Below are positions 21,343 to 57,032 of a stretch of 64,000 nt of DNA, in pieces. Below the pieces are notes generated by a model, which worked only from the letters and a program-made list of their open reading frames with translations, had not been told where the DNA came from and did no database searches. Position 1 is the stretch's first letter. The number at the start of each line of letters is the position of its first letter. The translations under genes were made by a program, and so were the position numbers. The stretch is from Phycisphaerales bacterium (GTDB lineage: Bacteria > Planctomycetota > Phycisphaerae > Sedimentisphaerales > UBA12454): the NCBI GenBank assembly GCA_003142595.1, contig PLMU01000003.1, positions 194,501 to 258,500 on the forward strand, in the 5' to 3' direction.

Positions 21343-22224
21343 ATGACTGATTTTACAGAACAACTTTTTGGTGGTAGTTGGACAGAGAAGAAACTTGAGA
21401 TACTAAAAAATTATCTTAATAGTTATAACACGGCATTAAAAAATCAACCATTCAAGCGGGTCTATATAGACGCATTTGCGGGGACAGGTTATCGCCAGCA
21501 ACGCAAACTGCAATATGATAACCCAGATATTTTCGAAGAATTGGGGCAAGACGAATCTGACCAGTTCCTGAAAGGCTCAGCCGCATTGGCTCTTGAAGCA
21601 AATCCTCCATTTGACAAGTATATCTTTATCGAAAGCGATCAAGATAAAATTAAGGAGTTAGAAAGACTAAAGCAGATTTATCCGCAAAAAAGCAAGCAAA
21701 TGGAAATAATACAAAGTGATGCAAATGAATTTATACAGAAATACTGTAAAAAAGAAGATTGGAGAAATACTCGGGCAGTTCTGTTTCTTGATCCATTTGC
21801 TACAGAGGTGGAATGGACAACCATTGAAGCGATTGCAAAAACAAAATGCATAGATGTCTGGATTCTTTTTCCACTTATGGCCGTCAATCGGCTATTAGCT
21901 AAAGATCCTAAAAAAGTTTTTTACGATCGTTTAAATAGGATTTTTGGTACTAAAGATTGGTTTGAATGTTTTTATAAAACGCAGATTTTGGACGATATTT
22001 TTGGCCAATCAATTGAAAAAATAGATAAAGCATGTAACTCAGCTAGCATAGCAAATTTTTATAAAAGCAGACTAAAAACAATATTTTCTGGAGTGGCAGA
22101 AGTGGATAAAACTTTTTGTAATAGCCGCGGCAGTATGTTATTCCATTTTTTCTTTGCCGTTGGAAACCCCACGGGAGCACCAATTGCTATTCGAATCGCA
22201 GAACATTTAATGAAAAAAATATAA
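21343..22224 (+). CDS. tcmP: Three-Cys-motif partner protein TcmP
   Basis: 293 aa. The opening FGGSWTEKKLEILKNYL, followed by FKRVYIDAFAGTGY, matches the three-Cys-motif partner family (TIGR04474). Methyltransferase-like Rossmann landmarks are visible: motif I DAFAGTG (43-49), an acidic motif II (FIESDQ, 95-100), motif III (QSDANEF, 124-130) and a DPPY-like LDPFAT (149-154). The family is named for its pairing with a Gp37/Gp68 three-Cys protein, which is indeed the next gene. An AAGGGATAG Shine-Dalgarno precedes the ATG. Actual activity is unknown; methyl transfer or another SAM-linked reaction is inferred. Confidence 0.85.
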   Translation: MTDFTEQLFGGSWTEKKLEILKNYLNSYNTALKNQPFKRVYIDAFAGTGYRQQRKLQYDNPDIFEELGQDESDQFLKGSAALALEANPPFDKYIFIESDQDKIKELERLKQIYPQKSKQMEIIQSDANEFIQKYCKKEDWRNTRAVLFLDPFATEVEWTTIEAIAKTKCIDVWILFPLMAVNRLLAKDPKKVFYDRLNRIFGTKDWFECFYKTQILDDIFGQSIEKIDKACNSASIANFYKSRLKTIFSGVAEVDKTFCNSRGSMLFHFFFAVGNPTGAPIAIRIAEHLMKKI

Positions 22225-22309: not shown

Positions 22310-23041
22310 ATGGCAGTTAATTCCGGAATAGAATGGACAGAATCAACTTGGAATCCTGTTACGGGATGCTCGGAAATAAGCGCAGGATGTAAAAACTGCT
22401 ACGCCAAGAGAATGGCTTTAAGATTGCAGGCTATGGGGCAGCCTAATTACCGCAACGGTTTTAAAGTAACATGTCATCCAAAATCGCTCGACTTGCCATT
22501 GTGCTGGAAAAAACCTCAGATGATTTTCGTAAATTCTATGAGCGACCTTTTTCATACTAAAGTTCCCTGTGAATTTATAACTAAAATTTTTGATGTTATG
22601 AGCCGAACACCACAACATATTTATCAATTCCTGACAAAAAGAGCAGAACGGCTGGCGGAGTTATCGGATTTAATGCCGTGGTCAAAAAATGTATGGGCGG
22701 GAGTTACGGTAGAGGCGACAGAATATAAATACAGGATAGAACTTTTACGACAGACAAAAGCCAATGTCAAATTTTTATCTTTGGAGCCTTTGTTGGAAGA
22801 TATCGGAAAATTAGATTTGACTGGTATTGACTGGGTCATAACAGGCGGAGAATCGGGGCCAGGCGCAAGACCAATAGAAGCCGATTGGGTCAGAAACATT
22901 CGAGAACAGTGCATAGAGCAAAACGTTCCATTTTTCTTTAAACAATGGGGTGGATTTAATAAGAAGAAAAACGGCCGCGAATTAGATGGCAAAGAATGGG
23001 ATCAGATACCAAACAGAGCGAATGAAGAGGTCTGCGTTTAA
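22310..23041 (+). CDS. Phage Gp37/Gp68-family three-Cys (DUF5131) protein
   Basis: 243 aa. The N-terminus IEWTESTWNPVTGC...GCKNCYAKRMA gives Cys20-x6-Cys27-x2-Cys30, the three-Cys cluster of the Gp37/Gp68 (DUF5131) family. Other family blocks are VNSMSDLFHTKVP, FLTKRAERL, WAGVTVE, FLSLEPLLEDI, WVITGGESGPGARP and FFKQWGG. The fold and cluster resemble radical SAM/spore photoproduct lyase proteins, so a Fe-S-dependent nucleic-acid reaction is plausible but undemonstrated. It follows TcmP by 85 nt. An imperfect AGG precedes the ATG. Confidence 0.88.
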   Translation: MAVNSGIEWTESTWNPVTGCSEISAGCKNCYAKRMALRLQAMGQPNYRNGFKVTCHPKSLDLPLCWKKPQMIFVNSMSDLFHTKVPCEFITKIFDVMSRTPQHIYQFLTKRAERLAELSDLMPWSKNVWAGVTVEATEYKYRIELLRQTKANVKFLSLEPLLEDIGKLDLTGIDWVITGGESGPGARPIEADWVRNIREQCIEQNVPFFFKQWGGFNKKKNGRELDGKEWDQIPNRANEEVCV

Positions 23042-23213: not shown

Positions 23214-23870
23214 TTACATCGGGGATTTCATAAAACTAAATTCGAGTTGGAGGTTGGCGTTTCTATCTGTTTTGTATTTTCGCAAATCCTCGTTTAATAA
23301 AATACTCCTGAACGGCTCATATTGCCAGCAGGGAAAATTCAAGGGGGCGTATTCCTCATCACAGGCCTGTAAAACAAATCTATCACGCGCAAAGGCGGCA
23401 ACAATTCGATTGGCGGGACTGTCGGGTAATTGAAAAACCACTTCTTTGCCATCGGCCGGCATAAATTTGGCTGAACAATATGTCCTTTTGCCCTGATGTT
23501 TAATGCAAACGCCAAAAAAGCCTGTTTCATTAATACATTTTTTGTTCAGATTGTTTTGCCTTTTGGTTACAAATCGCAGATTACATCTTCGGTTATCAAA
23601 AGGGTTCCTGTTCTTATGGTCAACTATCTGCCCCTTTTTGGCGTTCATTACAAACCTTGCAAGCGGAACATAACGCGAAGGTTTTCTGCCGAAGACGACG
23701 ACAGGACAGCCATCGGAGGAAATACGCACCGAAGTAATATCGCCATTGTATTTCCTGTTTGGCGGGTCGCGGCGAATATTAAAGATTTTTCTATAAATGT
23801 CCGGGTCAACTTTGACAATCCGGTCCTGAATTTTGAACATAAGATAGTCGATTTTGCGTTTTGAAGACAT
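23214..23870 (-). CDS. Homing-type HNH endonuclease
   Basis: 218 aa. The HNH motif is IVDHKNRNPFDNRRCNLRFV (about residues 82-101), followed by an RQNNLNK basic segment and an AP2-like DNA-binding stretch (GFFGVCIKHQGKRTYCSAKF). The C-terminal YAPLNFPCWQYEPFRSILLNEDLRKYK-type tail is shared with the 52296 gene, defining a local paralogous family. Phage and mobile-element HNH/AP2 proteins have the same order. The gene is minus-strand, isolated, and bracketed by direct repeats. It probably spreads itself by cutting DNA. Confidence 0.82.
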   Translation of the reverse strand: MSSKRKIDYLMFKIQDRIVKVDPDIYRKIFNIRRDPPNRKYNGDITSVRISSDGCPVVVFGRKPSRYVPLARFVMNAKKGQIVDHKNRNPFDNRRCNLRFVTKRQNNLNKKCINETGFFGVCIKHQGKRTYCSAKFMPADGKEVVFQLPDSPANRIVAAFARDRFVLQACDEEYAPLNFPCWQYEPFRSILLNEDLRKYKTDRNANLQLEFSFMKSPM

Positions 23871-24146
23871 AATAAGACTCCGTAAATGGATTGGAATATG
23901 GAAGTAAGAATTAAAGACTGAATTGCCCCCTTGCGGGGGTCTACGCTACGCTTCGACGCTTCGCTCCGAGAAAATGGTTGTTTAAATAGATTTCTCGACT
24001 CACCCCTGAGGGTTCGCTCGAAATGACAAAATGTTTGAAAACAATCTAATTTATACGGGTATTATACCATTTTTTAACAGAAAATCAAGGAAAAAATGGT
24101 AAGAAAGCGGAAAATGGGGAAAAATGACAGGGATGGGCGGCATAAT
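23871..24146. other. Noncoding spacer with repeat fragments
   Basis: It holds the GCCCCCTTGCGGGGGT hairpin (about 23924-23940) that leads into the direct repeat at 23935. A CTCGACTCACCCCTGAGGGT segment near 23995 belongs to the dispersed repeat background. No gene seen. Confidence 0.5.
23935..23959 (+). repeat. Direct repeat right of homing HNH gene
   Basis: Second copy of the GGGGTCTACGC..GCTTCGACG repeat, same orientation as 23163-23187. A weaker relative (GGGGGTCTCCGCTGTGGCTC) lies near 19338-19357 in the dprA leader. Confidence 0.5.
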
Positions 24147-49527: not shown

Positions 49528-52236
49528 ATGATGAAACTTGGGAAAATCTTTTTCATATCAATCTTAGTCGTTTGCATCTGCCTGACTATCTGGCAAAAAG
49601 ATAATCTCAAAACTATCCTCAATGAATATTGGGCCTTTTATAAATGTTATCACTATACTGAACACGGCTGGGCTCCAAAAACACTCGTCATAAAAGAAAA
49701 AGTCACAAAGTCAGACCCAGAGGCAGCGGCAATAGTTAATTATAGGCTTAGTTCTACGGCGATTGCTGATAACAAGACGCAGGAAATCCTTTCAAAAAAT
49801 ATATCCGAATTTCCAGAAAATCAGTATTTCATTTATGAACTTGCGTTATGTGCAGATTATCATATGGAAAATGGGCTCGATCCTGCAATTCTTCTTAAAC
49901 TTTCAAACAGACTTATTGAATTAGATAACAAAAATTCAAATTATTACTATTTGAAGGCATTCGCTTTACTTCACGATAGAAATGGCAATAATTTTGATGA
50001 AGTTGCCGAGGCAATAAAACAGGCTGTTAGATGTGAATATTATAAAAATCCATATTTGCTATACAGAGACAGAGTTTTAGCAATAGCCCGAAAAGATGGC
50101 TTACCAAGGGATTTAATAGGAATGTTGGATGATGTATTGCCTTATAATTTCTTTATATACAAGATGTACGAGGCTCTACTCCAATACCAGAATCTGCTGA
50201 TTACTGAAGGAAATTTCAATAAGGCAGATGAAATATCAAGCCTGCTTACAGGAATGTTTAAAAACGATATACACAGATGGCCCATAAATAATTCATCACG
50301 TCCCTCCGAGCGTCTTTATGGTCTTGGGTTCGGGTTTGGCCGATGGAATCTGCCACAGGAAATTGAATTGCAGCGCAAAAATCTGACAAAGCAGGAGGCC
50401 GACCAGAAAAGACTGGAAATGTGTGCAATGGCCAGTCCGAAAAGAAAAGTCGAACTGGTAAATAAATACTACTATGAGTCGAGTGAAACAGGCCTGCCTT
50501 ATGTAATAGCCGTACCAGGTTTCATTTATTTTATTAAAATGGCAGAAGTATTTGTATTCCTGATAATAATTATTTGGATACTTTCATTTATTCGCAAGGA
50601 CGATTCAAAAATCAAACTCAACAAGGTAGGTTTAACACGATTTCTAATTTATGGTTTTGTATTTTTTATTACCACACAATTATTGGCGTTTTTATCTCTC
50701 TGTGAGTACCAATGCTGCTATAGTTATCGAGACATCTTTTTTTCTCCACGGCTCAAGTTTGAAGATATAAAAGAATTACTGCATGCTCCATTGCGATTTT
50801 TGATTTTATTTATTACACCTTTGGCAATTGTTCTTTGCATGGGCATTATCAGATTTTTTAAACCTAAATTCGATAATATAGTCAGCAGGTTTATCAGCGG
50901 TGTATTAATCGCGATTCAGTTTGGCCTTGTGATAATGTTTTCTTTAGGCCATACATATATCAGTTTCCTTATTTTGATAATTTTTGTGTTATATTCTTTT
51001 AAATATTCTTTCCGCAAAATTACATTAAGAAGTATTCTTAAAGCATTCGCCGGAAGTAGTAAAAATGAAATTCCTGTCTTGCGAACCGATTTACTTAAGT
51101 TGTCTGCCATCGCGGCTGTTTTGTGCTGGCTTGGTTTTGTGCTTTTGGCATATCCAACTAAAAAATCAATGGAGGGAAAGTTAATAGAAAACAAGTATTA
51201 TACATATTCATTTACCGATGACTACGAAAAGGCTTATCAGAATATATTAAATAAAATTAACAACGTAAATTCTACCAGATCAATGGTTTTAAGATGTATT
51301 CCTTTAGTCAAATCAGATGATTTGCCGGGAATTCTGGAAAAACTAAAAACCCGAAAATTTCCTTCTTCCTGGAATATGGAAGGGTATTTTCCAGGTACTA
51401 AGAAATACGATGAATTAAATGATCGATCGCTTTCATTTTTACTAAGGTCGGCGGCCAGAGACCAGATGCCTGTCATTCTCCGTTATATGGATAATCCTGA
51501 TGATGATTTGACGCTTGTTTTCAGGGCGCAACTGGGCAATAAAAGCGTAAAAGATAAATTAAAAAATTTGCTGAATGAAGCGATGAAGGAAGAGAATGAT
51601 CCGAACAAGGTTCTGAAAAGAGAAAACGCAGATAAGCCAAGGATTTCGCAGATAATTTCCGCTTTATCCGTGATATCTGAACCTGATGAGGCATATGAGT
51701 TGTTTAAGGGATGTTATGAAAAGTGGTCAGTAAGTGATAATAATCTGCGATTCGAATATGAAAGTGTCTGCACATTACCAAAGGATACTATTTTAAAAAT
51801 AGAAAACTTATATCTTGAAGATTTAGAAAATAAAATCAATAAACATGACAACGATGTAAGAAATCTTTTATTGTCCCCTTTATCGGGGGATTCCGATGGA
51901 CTATATCTCGATGAAAAAATTGCAACAAGGATTTTAAGATTGATGCTGCAAACAGATGTTCCTCATTATCAGATTAAACGACTGGGGATTGAACATTATT
52001 TGACTTCTGATGAATCCGAACTGCTTATCAAGGGGCTGCAAAGCGATGATGAAAACCTGCGGGCATGGTGTGTTTGGCAACTCAGGAAGATAGATTACAA
52101 GTTCCGCGATAATGAGCTGAAAAAAATCACCGAGGACAAAAGCTGGAAAGTAAGAGCTAATCTGGCCATTTTCCATAAGTCTTTGATTAAGGAAAATGAG
52201 ACCAGCGATTTTGTGAAGTTAGTAAAATCATTATAA
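49528..52236 (+). CDS. Large membrane protein with TPR-like N-terminus and HEAT-like C-terminus, unknown function
   Basis: 902 aa. TM helix near the N-terminus (residues 4-22), a helical repeat-like region (about 60-290, including KADEISSLLTGMF), then about five TM helices (roughly 335-358, 372-395, 425-450, 465-500 and 540-560). A cytoplasmic-like tail ends in HEAT/Armadillo-like helices (ESELLIKGLQSDDENLRAWC; DKSWKVRANLAIFH). No enzymatic motif was recognised. AGGAGATAC upstream is a good Shine-Dalgarno. A+T-rich relative to neighbours. It could be a signalling or stress-sensing scaffold; that is a guess. Confidence 0.65.
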   Translation: MMKLGKIFFISILVVCICLTIWQKDNLKTILNEYWAFYKCYHYTEHGWAPKTLVIKEKVTKSDPEAAAIVNYRLSSTAIADNKTQEILSKNISEFPENQYFIYELALCADYHMENGLDPAILLKLSNRLIELDNKNSNYYYLKAFALLHDRNGNNFDEVAEAIKQAVRCEYYKNPYLLYRDRVLAIARKDGLPRDLIGMLDDVLPYNFFIYKMYEALLQYQNLLITEGNFNKADEISSLLTGMFKNDIHRWPINNSSRPSERLYGLGFGFGRWNLPQEIELQRKNLTKQEADQKRLEMCAMASPKRKVELVNKYYYESSETGLPYVIAVPGFIYFIKMAEVFVFLIIIIWILSFIRKDDSKIKLNKVGLTRFLIYGFVFFITTQLLAFLSLCEYQCCYSYRDIFFSPRLKFEDIKELLHAPLRFLILFITPLAIVLCMGIIRFFKPKFDNIVSRFISGVLIAIQFGLVIMFSLGHTYISFLILIIFVLYSFKYSFRKITLRSILKAFAGSSKNEIPVLRTDLLKLSAIAAVLCWLGFVLLAYPTKKSMEGKLIENKYYTYSFTDDYEKAYQNILNKINNVNSTRSMVLRCIPLVKSDDLPGILEKLKTRKFPSSWNMEGYFPGTKKYDELNDRSLSFLLRSAARDQMPVILRYMDNPDDDLTLVFRAQLGNKSVKDKLKNLLNEAMKEENDPNKVLKRENADKPRISQIISALSVISEPDEAYELFKGCYEKWSVSDNNLRFEYESVCTLPKDTILKIENLYLEDLENKINKHDNDVRNLLLSPLSGDSDGLYLDEKIATRILRLMLQTDVPHYQIKRLGIEHYLTSDESELLIKGLQSDDENLRAWCVWQLRKIDYKFRDNELKKITEDKSWKVRANLAIFHKSLIKENETSDFVKLVKSL

Positions 52237-52295
52237 AGAGTATATATCCAAAAACGTTCCAGAGCTAAATAGGAGACGCCTGCCTATTTTGAATT

Positions 52296-52961
52296 TTAAT
52301 ATGTCATTTTGCTTTTTGATATTTGATTTTTGATATTATTTTTTTCTTTATATTTTCCCAAATCTTCATTCATCAAAATGCTTCGCAATGGCTCAAACTG
52401 CCAACACGGAAAATTCAGCGGCGCATATTCCTCATCGCCAGCCTGCAAAACAAATTTATCGTGCGCCAGCGCCGCTAAAATTCGGTTAAATGGTGTGTCC
52501 TGACAGTAAAATCCTAAATTTTTTCCTTCTTTAGTTGTAAAATGTGCGCTGACATAAAACCTGCCTTTGTGTTTACAGGCAGACACGCCGACCAGACCTG
52601 TGCTATTTTTCACTTTCCGGTTGAGCATATTCTGTCTTGCCGTTACGATTCGCAAATTGCTTCTGCGGTTATCCCACGGGTCTCTGTTTATATGGTCAAC
52701 TAATTCGCCTTTGCCGGCCTTCATTATATATCTTGATAGTATAATTGATTTCTTTTCTCCTTCTTTTAAAACTATTCGTGGACAGCCGTCTGTAAAATAA
52801 AAGCCCTGAAAAAATGTATATTTCCTGTGCGGCAGAATATCGGGGTCTTTGAATAATCTGCGATAAATAAAATCATCGACTTTCATTGTCCGGCCGTTGA
52901 CTTCAAACGTTCGATAGTTGTTTGCCGTAAGGCATCCCTTAGTGGATTTTTGTTGTAGCAT
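52296..52961 (-). CDS. Homing-type HNH endonuclease
   Basis: 221 aa. HNH motif LVDHINRDPWDNRRSNLRIV (about residues 88-107), then TARQNMLNRK and an AP2-like GLVGVSACKHKGRFYVSAHF. It shares the C-terminal YAPLNFPCWQFEPLRSILMNE segment with the 23214 gene. The last residues (NNIKNQISKSK) come from an ATATTTGATTTTTGATATT repeat at the 3' end. It overlaps the upstream Cys-rich gene by 23 nt. Likely a mobile, DNA-cutting gene. Confidence 0.82.
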   Translation of the reverse strand: MLQQKSTKGCLTANNYRTFEVNGRTMKVDDFIYRRLFKDPDILPHRKYTFFQGFYFTDGCPRIVLKEGEKKSIILSRYIMKAGKGELVDHINRDPWDNRRSNLRIVTARQNMLNRKVKNSTGLVGVSACKHKGRFYVSAHFTTKEGKNLGFYCQDTPFNRILAALAHDKFVLQAGDEEYAPLNFPCWQFEPLRSILMNEDLGKYKEKNNIKNQISKSKMTY

Positions 52962-53226
52962 TTTTCTTCGGTTCCTTGTTGGTTTCTTTTGTGTAGGGTC
53001 TTAAGCCGAACAAAGGGCAGGCCAGGCAGGAGCAATTTATTATCTCGTTCTTTTGCCAGCAGACACATTCGAGGCAAAACGCGTTGATTGCCGCTGATTT
53101 ATTAAGCCTTTCGGCCGCATTTTTATAAATTTTGCGGTATTTTTTCGGGATTTCCGCTGCTCTGGCTGCTATTTTCTGTTTTCTTAATAATTCCATCTGT
53201 GGATTTTGTAAATTTGCCGTTTTCAT
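52939..53226 (-). CDS. Cys-rich zinc-binding-like small protein upstream of the HNH gene
   Basis: About 95 aa using ATG 53226, which has GAGGAAG at the right distance; the frame is open to 53283 without a better start. A basic helical first part (RAAEIPKKYRKIYKNAAERLNKS) precedes AAINAFCLECVCWQKNEI, CSCLACPLFGLRPY and a charged tail. The pattern AxxAFCLEC...E...C.C..CPL..RPY resembles small phage-type proteins with a zinc-binding knuckle. It overlaps the HNH start by 23 nt, so the two are coupled. Confidence 0.65.
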   Translation of the reverse strand: MKTANLQNPQMELLRKQKIAARAAEIPKKYRKIYKNAAERLNKSAAINAFCLECVCWQKNEIINCSCLACPLFGLRPYTKETNKEPKKNATTKIH

Positions 53227-53502
53227 AACCTGCTTCCTCATAAGGTTTTTCAGTGATTTTTCGCCTGTTTGTTTAATAATCATCTAACTTATCGGTATTT
53301 TACCATAAAATAGTAAAAAATCAAGCATTTTTTATTAATTTTTCAAAATATTTTATAAATATCTAACAAAGACAACGTTAAAAAAAGGCCTCTGCCGTAA
53401 GGCGAATCCGGGTCAGACAGTGCCGTTTTTTGTTGTGTCTTTTTGTTACAAAAACACTATTTTTCGATTGGACAAACTCCTGACAGGGACAGGGTTTAAG
53501 AT

Positions 53503-53531
53503 TTGCAAGGTATAGCGAATTGGTATATAAT
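53503..53531 (+). promoter_or_regulatory. Sigma-70-like promoter of the bamD operon
   Basis: TTGCAA (53503-53508), 17-nt spacer, TATAAT (53526-53531), 31 nt before the ATG at 53563. Confidence 0.7.
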
Positions 53532-53562
53532 GCCGATTCGGCAAATTTTGGAGTATAAAGTT

Positions 53563-54567
53563 ATGCGGAAAAATGGACTTATTTTGTTTGCAGTCTTGGG
53601 GTTAGGCGTCATTTGCGCGGCCGAAACCTGGCATCTTGGAAACGACCAAAACTGGCAGAAAACCAGTGATAAAGGCGACAGCGCTTTTATGCTGGCTGCA
53701 TCCGACGCAAAACAGTATGTATCGACAGGCAATACGGGAAAAGCCAAAAAAGCATACGCCCAACTCAAAAAGGATTATCCGGCAATTGCCGGCGAAGATT
53801 TCGATGCATATGTAAAAGTAGAAATGCTGTATAGCGGACATAAATATTTCGAGGCTGCGACGGCTTATGACAATTTTTTGGAACAATATCCTAAAAGTCC
53901 GTTTTTTAACTCGGCCCTGGAAAGAGAACAGCAGATATCGACAGCGTATCTTAACGGCCAGAAAAGACCTGTGTTGAAAGTGTTCAAGGTAAGCGCATAC
54001 GAAGAAGGCACTGATATAGCAAACAAAATCGCAGACAGAGCGGGCGATGCCCCGGCGGCCAAACGAGCGCTCGAGACGCTGGCACAGACTGATGAAAAAA
54101 GAGGCGCTAATGAAGAGGCTTATAAGGCATGGTCGAGCATAGCCACACGCTGGCCGACAGGCGAGATGGGCCAGGAGTCATTGATTGGCAGAGCAAGAAG
54201 TCTTGAGCGAGCATATAAAGGTCCAAAATTCGACGGCAAGGTTCTTGAAAGCTCGAGAAGTTATTATTCAGAATATATTCAGAGGTATCCGGACTCGGCA
54301 CAACAGCTCGGCCTGGAAGGAAAGCTGCCGGAACTGGATGAGAAACTTTCGGAAAAGGAATTGCTAATCGCCAATTATTATGCCAAAACCGGCAGTTACA
54401 CCGCTGCCGATATATATTATCAGAGAATAATAAACGATTGGCCTGCATGTGCCGCAACAAAAACCGCGGAAGAGAAACAGCCTGAAATTAAAAAAGAACT
54501 GGAAAAACAGGCTCAGCAGCAGACGACTAAAAAGAAAAAGATAAACTGGAAAGGTTTGTTGTTATGA
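53563..54567 (+). CDS. BamD/YfiO-like outer-membrane assembly TPR protein
   Basis: 334 aa from ATG 53563, with GGAG upstream; the frame opens at 53503 but upstream sequence is promoter. Signal peptide (MRKNGLILFAVLGLGVICAAE). No clear lipobox: the Cys in VICA lacks a good -3/-1 context. Several TPR-like helical pairs follow, with YVSTGNTGKAKKAYAQLKKD, KYFEAATAYDNFLEQYPKSPFFNSAL, YYSEYIQRYPDSAQQ and YYAKTGSYTAADIYYQRIINDWP, the BamD-style YxxFLExYPxSP pattern. It probably aids beta-barrel insertion; lptE follows with a 4-nt overlap. Confidence 0.75.
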   Translation: MRKNGLILFAVLGLGVICAAETWHLGNDQNWQKTSDKGDSAFMLAASDAKQYVSTGNTGKAKKAYAQLKKDYPAIAGEDFDAYVKVEMLYSGHKYFEAATAYDNFLEQYPKSPFFNSALEREQQISTAYLNGQKRPVLKVFKVSAYEEGTDIANKIADRAGDAPAAKRALETLAQTDEKRGANEEAYKAWSSIATRWPTGEMGQESLIGRARSLERAYKGPKFDGKVLESSRSYYSEYIQRYPDSAQQLGLEGKLPELDEKLSEKELLIANYYAKTGSYTAADIYYQRIINDWPACAATKTAEEKQPEIKKELEKQAQQQTTKKKKINWKGLLL

Positions 54568-55064
54568 GGACAACGGTTGTAACAGCCGTACTTTCGGCGA
54601 TGATTTTTTTCGCCGGCTGCGTCGGATACAGCAATAAGCCGTTATATACGGATGAAGTAAAAAGTGTTTTTGTCGAGATGTTCGATAATACGACATTCAC
54701 CAGAGACCTTGAATACGACCTGACGGACGCTATCGCAAAGCGCATTGAGGCGGATACGCCATATAAAATAATTTCAGACAAAAGCAGAGCAGATACGGTA
54801 TTAAGCGGAAAGATAACAGGAATAGGCGGCGTACCACTAACACTTGACCGAGATACCGGCAGAGCATTGGAGAACCAGGCGGAAATTACGGCGATATTCA
54901 GCTGGAAAAACCTTAAGACGGGTCAATACCTTGTTGAAAACGCCAGCCTGACGGCAACGGCAGGTTATTCGGAATTCGAGCAGCAGAGCTTCGAATATGC
55001 ATCCAGAGTAGCAACAAACAAACTTGCTGAGAGAATCGTAGAAGAAATGCAAACAAAGTGGTAA
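54564..55064 (+). CDS. lptE: LptE-like LPS-assembly lipoprotein
   Basis: 166 aa. Lipoprotein signal (AVLSAMIFFAGCVGYS; Cys19 is the lipidation site). The mature part has the LptE-like pattern VKSVFVEMFDNTTF, LEYDLTDAIAKRIEADTPYKI, ADTVLSGKITGI and the C-terminal helix ATNKLAERIVEEM. LptE plugs the LptD barrel in LPS export, which would imply LPS-like lipid. Only the pattern supports the name; sequence identity in this family is low. Overlaps the BamD-like gene by 4 nt. Confidence 0.75.
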   Translation: MRTTVVTAVLSAMIFFAGCVGYSNKPLYTDEVKSVFVEMFDNTTFTRDLEYDLTDAIAKRIEADTPYKIISDKSRADTVLSGKITGIGGVPLTLDRDTGRALENQAEITAIFSWKNLKTGQYLVENASLTATAGYSEFEQQSFEYASRVATNKLAERIVEEMQTKW

Positions 55065-55088
55065 TAAAACGCCGCTGTATAACGCGGG

Positions 55089-57032
55089 ATGAAACAGAAA
55101 GATATGAATAATAAAAAGAAACAGAATTCAACGAGAAGACCACCGGAGATGTCAAATAAACCGCCTCTCGGGCAACGGACCGGGCCGATGGGCTGGCTGT
55201 TATTAGGCCTTGCATTTATAACTCTTATAACGATGTTCGACAAGTATTCGGCGCGTGACGAAATAAGCAATAACGAGTTTGAAAAATATCTTTCCGAAGG
55301 CAAGGTGGAAAGCGTTGAAATCGGGGACAGTCAGATAAACGGCAAGTTTAACGCCGCCGGTGTCGCCTCGCGGCTTCCAAAGGCAGCAAAGACATTTAGA
55401 TTAGGCTACAGGCCTGAAATGCTTCCGGACATAACCGCAAAACTTCAAACGGCACAGGTTGAGTGGGTCGTCACTCAGCCGCAGATATGGATATCTTTGC
55501 TGGGGTGGATACTTCCGGTCGCGCTGATGATCGCATTTTTCTATTTCGTCTTCATAAGAAATGCCCGCAACGGGCCGGGCGGAATGCTGATGAACTTCGG
55601 CAGAAGCAAACACAAAATGCACGGCAAAGAGCAGATGAAGGTAACGTTCGATGATGTGGCCGGTATCGATGAAGCCAAAGAAGAAGTGGCGGAGATTATC
55701 GAATTTTTGAAACATCCGAAGAAATTCCAGAGAATCGGCGGCAGGATACCGCGAGGCATATTGCTCGTGGGGCCCCCTGGTTGTGGCAAGACGCTGCTGG
55801 CAAAGGCAATCGCAGGTCAGGCGAATGTGCCGTTTTTCAGTATTTCGGGCAGCGATTTCGTTGAGATGTTTGTCGGCGTCGGAGCATCGAGAGTTCGCGA
55901 TTTATTTAATACGGCAAAGGAGAGTTCGCCGTGCATAATATTTTTGGACGAGATTGACGCTATCGGCAGAAAGCGCGGGCCGGGATTTGTGAGCGGCGGA
56001 CACGACGAAAGAGAACAGACTTTAAACGCCATCCTTGTAGAGATGGACGGTTTCGATACAAACGACGGTGTTATTGTTATGGCGGCCACAAACCGCGGCG
56101 ATATCCTCGATAAGGCACTGACTCGACCGGGCAGATTCGACAGGCAGGTTTATATTCCGCTGCCGGACGTTAAAGGCAGGACGGAGATACTTAAGATTCA
56201 CGCCAGAAAGGTCCGAATGGGCCCTGATGTCGACCTTGAAAGAGTGGCAAGGGGAACGCCTATGTTCAGCGGCGCAGACCTCGAAGCGATAATCAACGAA
56301 GCGGCTATCGCAGCAACGATGAATAACAAGGATTTCGTCGAAATGGAAGACCTCGAAGAAGCGCGTGATAAGGTTCGCTGGGGCAGGAAAAAGCGCAGCA
56401 GAACCATTGACTTGATTGATAAAAAAATTGCCGCATATCACGAGGCAGGCCATACTCTTGTGCAGTCAATGCTGAAGGATGCCGACCCGCTGCACAAAGT
56501 AAGTATCATACCGAGGGGTCCGATGGGCGGAGCGACTTTTTCTCTGCCGGAGAAAGACAGGACCATTTTTACGAAAAAATACTGTATGGCACAATTGCAA
56601 GTATGTTTCGGCGGACGAATAGCGGAACAACTTTTCTGCGATGATATGTCGAGCGGAGCACAATCGGATATACAGACTGCAACGGCTCTGGCAAGAGAAA
56701 TGGTGCAGACCTGGGGAATGAGCGATGACCTTGGACCCATCGATTATAGCACGCAGGCACAGGATATGTATTTCGGAATGCCGGGGCAGGAACACTCGCA
56801 GAAAACCGCGGAAATTATAGATATAGAAGTTAAAAAACTTATAGACATAGCATTCAAAGCCAGTAAAGAATTACTCCAGGCCAATCTCGATAAACTGCAG
56901 GCGATAGCCGAGGCACTTTTGAAATACGAGACATTAGACGCATCCGAGGTAAAAATCATTCTCGAAGGCGGGAGTTTAAACAAGCCGACCGTAGGCGATT
57001 TGCTCAAAACAGAGCAGGACAAGACAAATTAA
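55089..57032 (+). CDS. ftsH: ATP-dependent zinc metalloprotease FtsH
   Basis: 647 aa. Two TM helices (about 35-52 and 135-157) flank a periplasmic domain. The AAA+ module has the pore-loop FVGVGASRVRDLF, Walker A GPPGCGKT (about 226-233), Walker B IIFLDEIDAIG and the SRH ATNRGDILDKALTRPGRFDR. The peptidase has HEAGH (about 451-455) and a downstream zinc-ligand Asp. Degrades membrane and misfolded proteins. Two in-frame ATGs (55089, 55104) are possible. It lies in a plus-strand operon with bamD, lptE, dsbD and nth. Confidence 0.95.
   Translation: MKQKDMNNKKKQNSTRRPPEMSNKPPLGQRTGPMGWLLLGLAFITLITMFDKYSARDEISNNEFEKYLSEGKVESVEIGDSQINGKFNAAGVASRLPKAAKTFRLGYRPEMLPDITAKLQTAQVEWVVTQPQIWISLLGWILPVALMIAFFYFVFIRNARNGPGGMLMNFGRSKHKMHGKEQMKVTFDDVAGIDEAKEEVAEIIEFLKHPKKFQRIGGRIPRGILLVGPPGCGKTLLAKAIAGQANVPFFSISGSDFVEMFVGVGASRVRDLFNTAKESSPCIIFLDEIDAIGRKRGPGFVSGGHDEREQTLNAILVEMDGFDTNDGVIVMAATNRGDILDKALTRPGRFDRQVYIPLPDVKGRTEILKIHARKVRMGPDVDLERVARGTPMFSGADLEAIINEAAIAATMNNKDFVEMEDLEEARDKVRWGRKKRSRTIDLIDKKIAAYHEAGHTLVQSMLKDADPLHKVSIIPRGPMGGATFSLPEKDRTIFTKKYCMAQLQVCFGGRIAEQLFCDDMSSGAQSDIQTATALAREMVQTWGMSDDLGPIDYSTQAQDMYFGMPGQEHSQKTAEIIDIEVKKLIDIAFKASKELLQANLDKLQAIAEALLKYETLDASEVKIILEGGSLNKPTVGDLLKTEQDKTN

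Follow-up and report, generated by a model that had tools for sequence, protein, structure and literature searches.

We found that the HNH gene at position 52296 probably encodes a free-standing homing-type HNH-AP2 nuclease that has captured leaders and has a Cys-rich protein as its accessory regulator. The gene lies in the 64,000-nucleotide stretch of DNA analyzed here (the window; G000:C14:194501-258500), which belongs to a genome of 2.28 Mb in 18 contigs (G000). This reading builds on domain makeup, copy number, leaders, gene pairing, and selection, all of which were observed directly. The features of the window are collected in Table 1.

Table 1. Features at the two HNH loci of the window (positions are those of the window)
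Feature	Position	Strand	Basis or remark
HNH endonuclease gene	52296..52961	-	221 aa; ORF, Pfam, PHROG, model
HNH_3 motif, residues 84-112	52626..52712	-	Pfam match
AP2-like DNA-binding domain, residues ~119-185, ending YAPLNFP	52407..52607	-	Profile-profile and fold match
C-terminal tail CWQFEPLRSILMNEDL..., residues 186-221	52299..52406	-	First part lineage-specific, judged by sequence
Cys-rich protein gene, 95 aa, start 53226	52939..53226	-	ORF, RBS-like site, homologs
Four-Cys motif C-x2-C-x10-C-x4-C, residues 51-70	53017..53076	-	Alignment
Overlap of Cys and HNH genes, 23 nt	52939..52961	-	ORF coordinates
T1 leader box: TTGATT, 16 nt, TAAAAT, with TG before it; core TATGGTAAAATACCG	53293..53324	-	
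Second HNH gene, same subfamily, no Cys partner	23214..23870	-	Paralogy search
T1 leader box of second HNH gene	24058..24088	-	Two core mismatches

The protein encoded at 52296 matched Pfam HNH_3 (E 9.7e-10) and PHROG 99, an HNH endonuclease family (1.8e-21). Within the HNH_3 motif, N98, N102, and L103 were invariant among 40 aligned sequences, and D89 and H90 were conserved in at least 90% of them. In the AlphaFold2 model (pLDDT 85), two fold matches fell on separate halves of the protein: residues 17 to 108 resembled I-HmuI (PDB 1u3e; Z 4.9, rmsd 3.8, 73 aligned), and residues 119 to 207 resembled the AP2 protein WRINKLED1 (7wq5; VIA-align Z 6.9, rmsd 3.0, 82 aligned), a score that would be middling if taken alone. 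A Foldseek search with the same model gave no match at E 0.001. Besides, a profile-profile comparison between the subfamily of the window gene (A1) and classical HNH-AP2 proteins (A2) gave a probability of 99.1% (E 6.1e-19), the alignment ending at an A-x-L-N-F common to both. Together, the profile match and the fold match indicate that YAPLNFP marks where an AP2-like domain ends and that the true novelty is the tail behind it. We model the N-terminal half as an I-HmuI-like HNH nuclease and the C-terminal half as a divergent AP2 DNA-binding domain, behind which comes a short helical tail known from one planctomycete family only.

When the protein was compared with its own genome by tblastn, 17 matches were obtained; two of these are halves of one gene, so that G000 holds 16 HNH genes, which are scattered between host genes. 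Nine belong to A1 and seven are classical. Pfam HNH_3 matched all nine A1 proteins and the Pfam AP2 model none of them, while both models matched 7/7 classical proteins. As the preliminary description had proposed, the A1 gene at 23214 is a paralog of that at 52296 (49% identical, E 5.4e-61), shares its C-terminal segment, and is without a partner, there being no Cys-rich ORF upstream of it. That description had also taken the C-terminal domain to define a lineage-specific HNH family, which holds for the tail CWQxEPxRSxLLxxDL but not for the part through YAPLNFP. The latter is AP2-like and shared with classical HNH-AP2 endonucleases, and since occurrence in unrelated HNH proteins was what the description had named as counting against its proposal, that half is withdrawn. 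A model of the subfamily gave 36 matches of at least 120 bits, spread over 7 of the 98 related genomes and confined to one family; the remaining matches among those listed reached at most 80 bits and stopped about where the AP2 part ends, classical HNH-AP2 matches ending at about position 178. The tail motif was present in 18 of the 45 genome-collection ORFs with HNH and LNF (all at L129-L147, in planctomycete records), in 0/26 viral ORFs of this kind among the best 80 viral loci, and in 0/19 in relatives outside the family. Judged by these sequences, only the tail after YAPLNFP (CWQxEPxRSxLL...) is lineage-specific.

HNH-AP2 endonucleases are already known. Excerpts of PMC10448857 describe the architecture in protists, cyanobacteria, and phages, including HNH-AP2 homing endonucleases (Magnani et al. 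2004, as cited there) and the phage "IPA-HNH" HEGs. The genes studied here resemble those in the excerpts in having an N-terminal HNH and a C-terminal AP2 part and in being free-standing and sporadic. They differ in that the AP2 part is too divergent for the Pfam model and is followed by an extra family-specific tail, and in that they form a chromosomal multicopy set with stock leaders and an occasional Cys partner. I-HmuI is intron-encoded according to excerpts of PMC2988022, whereas among the 13 loci scanned here none gave an intron family match at gathering score. The Rfam scan of these loci at E <=1 returned four matches, all below gathering scores, and no HEARO RNA beside an HNH gene (the test for an IscB/HEARO arrangement). 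Indeed, the gene at 52296 is a complete intergenic ORF with no intron match in L001, the scanned locus that covers it, and is therefore free-standing. The same excerpts of PMC2988022 report the mob/seg genes of T4 as free-standing intergenic endonuclease genes under defined promoters, although in a phage genome rather than a bacterial chromosome, and state that T4 I-TevI represses its own promoter, which its operator overlaps. By analogy, such autorepression may be a precedent for regulation of the genes studied here.

The Cys-rich ORF upstream spans 52939-53283 on the minus strand. Position 53226 is its most likely start, because GAGGAAG, a ribosome-binding-like site, stands 7 to 13 nt before this ATG and because homologs begin near there. 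The four cysteines of the motif (C51, C54, C65, and C70) were invariant in 24 aligned homologs, and the protein is probably metal-binding. Only sub-threshold matches were obtained in Pfam, PHROG, and NCBIfam, none giving a family name at the thresholds used; phage records gave no match, and the structure model, of moderate confidence (pLDDT 75), gave none to solved folds with Foldseek. The protein has four copies in G000 and 35 matches in 26 of the 98 related genomes, and it is rare in the wider phylum (6/294 genomes, three of them from the window's own order). Both gene families look to be under purifying selection, with dN/dS values of 0.06 to 0.33 for Cys genes and 0.12 to 0.23 for HNH genes in comparisons with finite dS, where dS was near saturation.

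The operon-like pair proposed from the window alone turned out to be real: a Cys gene accompanies an HNH gene at five loci in four genomes. The 23-nt overlap is exactly as had been described and is found in the window pair only, the other four pairs having gaps of 1, 1, 30, and 306 nt. A second pair elsewhere in G000 has a Cys protein 71% identical to that of the window directly upstream of an HNH protein 67% identical to that at 52296; this pair and the recurrence at five loci imply that the pairing exceeds chance. General co-occurrence, which the preliminary description had suggested checking, was not found, only 5/36 subfamily HNH loci and 5/35 Cys matches being paired. Two pairs, in G000 and G009, occupy a locus (A) beside a gene that we take, by eye, to be BamD-like; two, in G000 and G003, occupy a locus (B) between epimerase and ankyrin genes. 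Of the 11 genomes holding the BamD-like gene, two (G000 and G009) have the unit next to it, and the unit is thus sporadic at this site; seven genomes have a different gene directly upstream, and in G012 a contig edge makes the site not assessable. The paired Cys proteins were monophyletic (support 0.997, or 0.879 with the G005 copy added). The HNH proteins of the pairs were not, that of G005 sitting in another clade. At locus B of G009, the HNH gene, 89% identical in product to its G003 counterpart, persists without a Cys gene, which indicates that the partner is dispensable.

Possibly, though we rather doubt it, the pair is what remains of an integrative element: an HNH gene would merely happen to lie behind the Cys gene of that element, and their pairing would be functionless debris. 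Homologs of the Cys protein have tyrosine integrases, HTH_17/AlpA genes, and primase or replication-type HTH genes as neighbors, and small Cys-rich genes of this kind sit between the AlpA-type and the replication genes of integrative elements. The fifth pair, in G005, is arranged T1-Cys-HNH-replication-type HTH gene, without an integrase, and this order, as well as the scarcity of the partner among HNH loci, accords with debris. The window pair seems to differ from such elements in that no adjoining AlpA or replication gene was seen by eye and no integrase was recognized by eye among the ORFs of 50000-55500; the 902-aa neighbor of the pair, the only neighbor searched, had no Pfam match. Selection on the Cys gene argues against debris, since the locus-B copies are 90% identical with a dN/dS of 0.055 whereas the HNH proteins beside them are only 69% identical. 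So does the leader T1, which was found upstream of the Cys gene at 5/5 paired loci and at 0/26 unpaired loci scored (L038 and L045, with no readable motif, were dropped, and one unpaired locus was counted twice, as L021 and L048). Gene order, selection, and leader together suggest that the Cys protein probably serves the unit as an accessory regulator.

T1 has a promoter-like general form, TTGACT...TATGGTAAAATACCG, with an extended -10 at the window pair, and precedes both HNH genes of the window. Taken as one promoter match, it does not exceed chance in its own region (3 found, 4.2 expected); its weight comes from recurrence. With at most one mismatch, the 15-mer TATGGTAAAATACCG has eight sites in G000, each of which precedes an HNH gene or pair on the same strand, and its reversed control has none; over seven genomes, 17 of 24 such sites were HNH-linked and 7 were not. 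A 64-nt T1 composite searched in seven genus genomes at E <=1e-3 gave 24 matches (7 in G000, 14 in G003, 2 in G006, and 1 in G005), each preceding an HNH gene. A weak T1 match (E 0.07) lies at G003 C38:34255 and a further site at G002 C5:34540, and the T1-like sites on C13 of G002 have no adjoining HNH gene. With up to two mismatches, the core occurs in 9 of the 16 HNH upstream regions of G000 (10 counting L017), and six HNH genes are without T1. A position matrix, trained on the same regions that it scored, gave 23 to 59 for 32 of 45 family HNH upstream regions, the shuffle maximum being 6. Concerted evolution of T1 within genomes was not supported: the nearest leader was from the same genome in 8/28 cases (shuffled mean 8.6, p 0.63).

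Where HNH genes lack T1, a second leader of about 146 nt, T2, is often present, with three GCGCA/TGCGC arms (HNH loci L003, L009, L014, L015, L016, L011, L099, L107, L108, L321, L322, and L058). Most of the 16 HNH genes in G000 carry one leader or the other. Both leaders occur in both protein classes, with repeated switches on the HNH tree. An RNA structure for T2 was considered; RNAalifold on 21 leaders gave five pairs, in none of which both sides had changed, and because the GCGCA arms are simply conserved, the RNA reading was dropped. The switching of leaders between HNH clades would also be expected if the genes landed beside fixed sequences, that is, if T1 and T2 were insertion targets of the nuclease rather than regulatory leaders, and T2 does exist without HNH, ahead of a phage portal-like gene. 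Nevertheless, we regard insertion targets as unlikely: the layout of T1 is that of a promoter, its composite matches at E <=1e-3 are HNH-linked without exception, and genus genomes without the unit show no T1 site (at most one mismatch) beside the BamD-like gene.

Across the genus, T2 was matched 15 times: ahead of HNH genes in 11 cases, ahead of the portal-like gene in 3, and at a contig end in 1. Scaffold-like (PHROG 206, 2.1e-4) and major-head (PHROG 1328, 1.1e-76) genes come after the T2-led portal gene (PHROG 64, 1.1e-24). In G000, this phage-head cluster of portal, scaffold, major head protein, and small ORFs lies at L335 (G000:C17:59500-79400), with relatives at L337-L348. Its neighbors are conserved in G003, and the 10 kb inspected by eye showed no recognizable terminase. 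The portal gene is single-copy in 11/13 family genomes at 79 to 86% identity, versus 41 to 68% for the BamD-like gene across the family; in G010 the match covers only 82 residues. The cluster is possibly gene-transfer-agent-like. T2 was anchored at 9/11 portal loci (L338-L348); the alignment left out the portal loci of G012 and G001, where no arm was anchored, and the truncated HNH leader L332/L008. In 11/12 cases, the T2 of an HNH gene most resembled the portal leader of the same genome, which fits either coevolution with one regulator or local copying.

That the pair is a toxin-antitoxin-like unit, with the Cys protein restraining a harmful nuclease, is very improbable, since, although a small upstream gene is close or overlapping at 4/5 pairs, stable pairing fails with 31/36 subfamily HNH genes lacking a Cys gene, the orthologous G009 HNH gene persists alone, and most Cys homologs have no HNH neighbor in the flanks read.

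For the favored homing-type nuclease with an accessory regulator, we infer cutting, homing, and cotranscription as follows. At the five paired loci, T1 would drive transcription of the Cys gene and then the HNH gene. The AP2 part would pick a DNA site, the HNH part would nick or cut it, and repair would copy the unit into the cut. The Cys protein would regulate the unit, through either its expression or its access to DNA. We further put forward, tentatively, that the chromosomal HNH-AP2 genes form a dispersed regulon in which T2 is shared only with the vertically kept phage-head cluster, the nucleases being coexpressed with particle production, and that T1-Cys-HNH is a separate branch whose regulator came from integrative elements. 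If the T2 link is regulatory, selfish nucleases would be tied to a domesticated phage particle. As far as open-licence papers show, it is new that such a nuclease has a tail specific to one family, pairs with a Cys gene, carries stock leaders, and is linked through T2 to a phage-head cluster, and we found no literature on this planctomycete HNH set in such papers. Thus, a vague HNH gene with a partner becomes a testable system of 16 homing-type nucleases on a bacterial chromosome with interchangeable leaders, and T1 and T2 provide cis-elements by which this nuclease set can be recognized in genomes.

Several minor observations were also made. Just beyond the second HNH gene, the window encodes a DUF5131 protein (22310-23041; Pfam, 2e-102), and the protein preceding it (21343-22224) is presumably a three-Cys-motif partner, its Pfam match being sub-threshold. 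One HNH gene of G000 has both leaders, a truncated T2 and then T1 (L332:630-1051, G000:C4). In G009, a tiny ORF, MDKITLSIPVPKFINQ, was read by eye between T1 and the locus-B HNH gene (L129:2900-2965); it resembles the N terminus of classical HNH-AP2 proteins, as if the HNH gene had been swapped behind the same leader.
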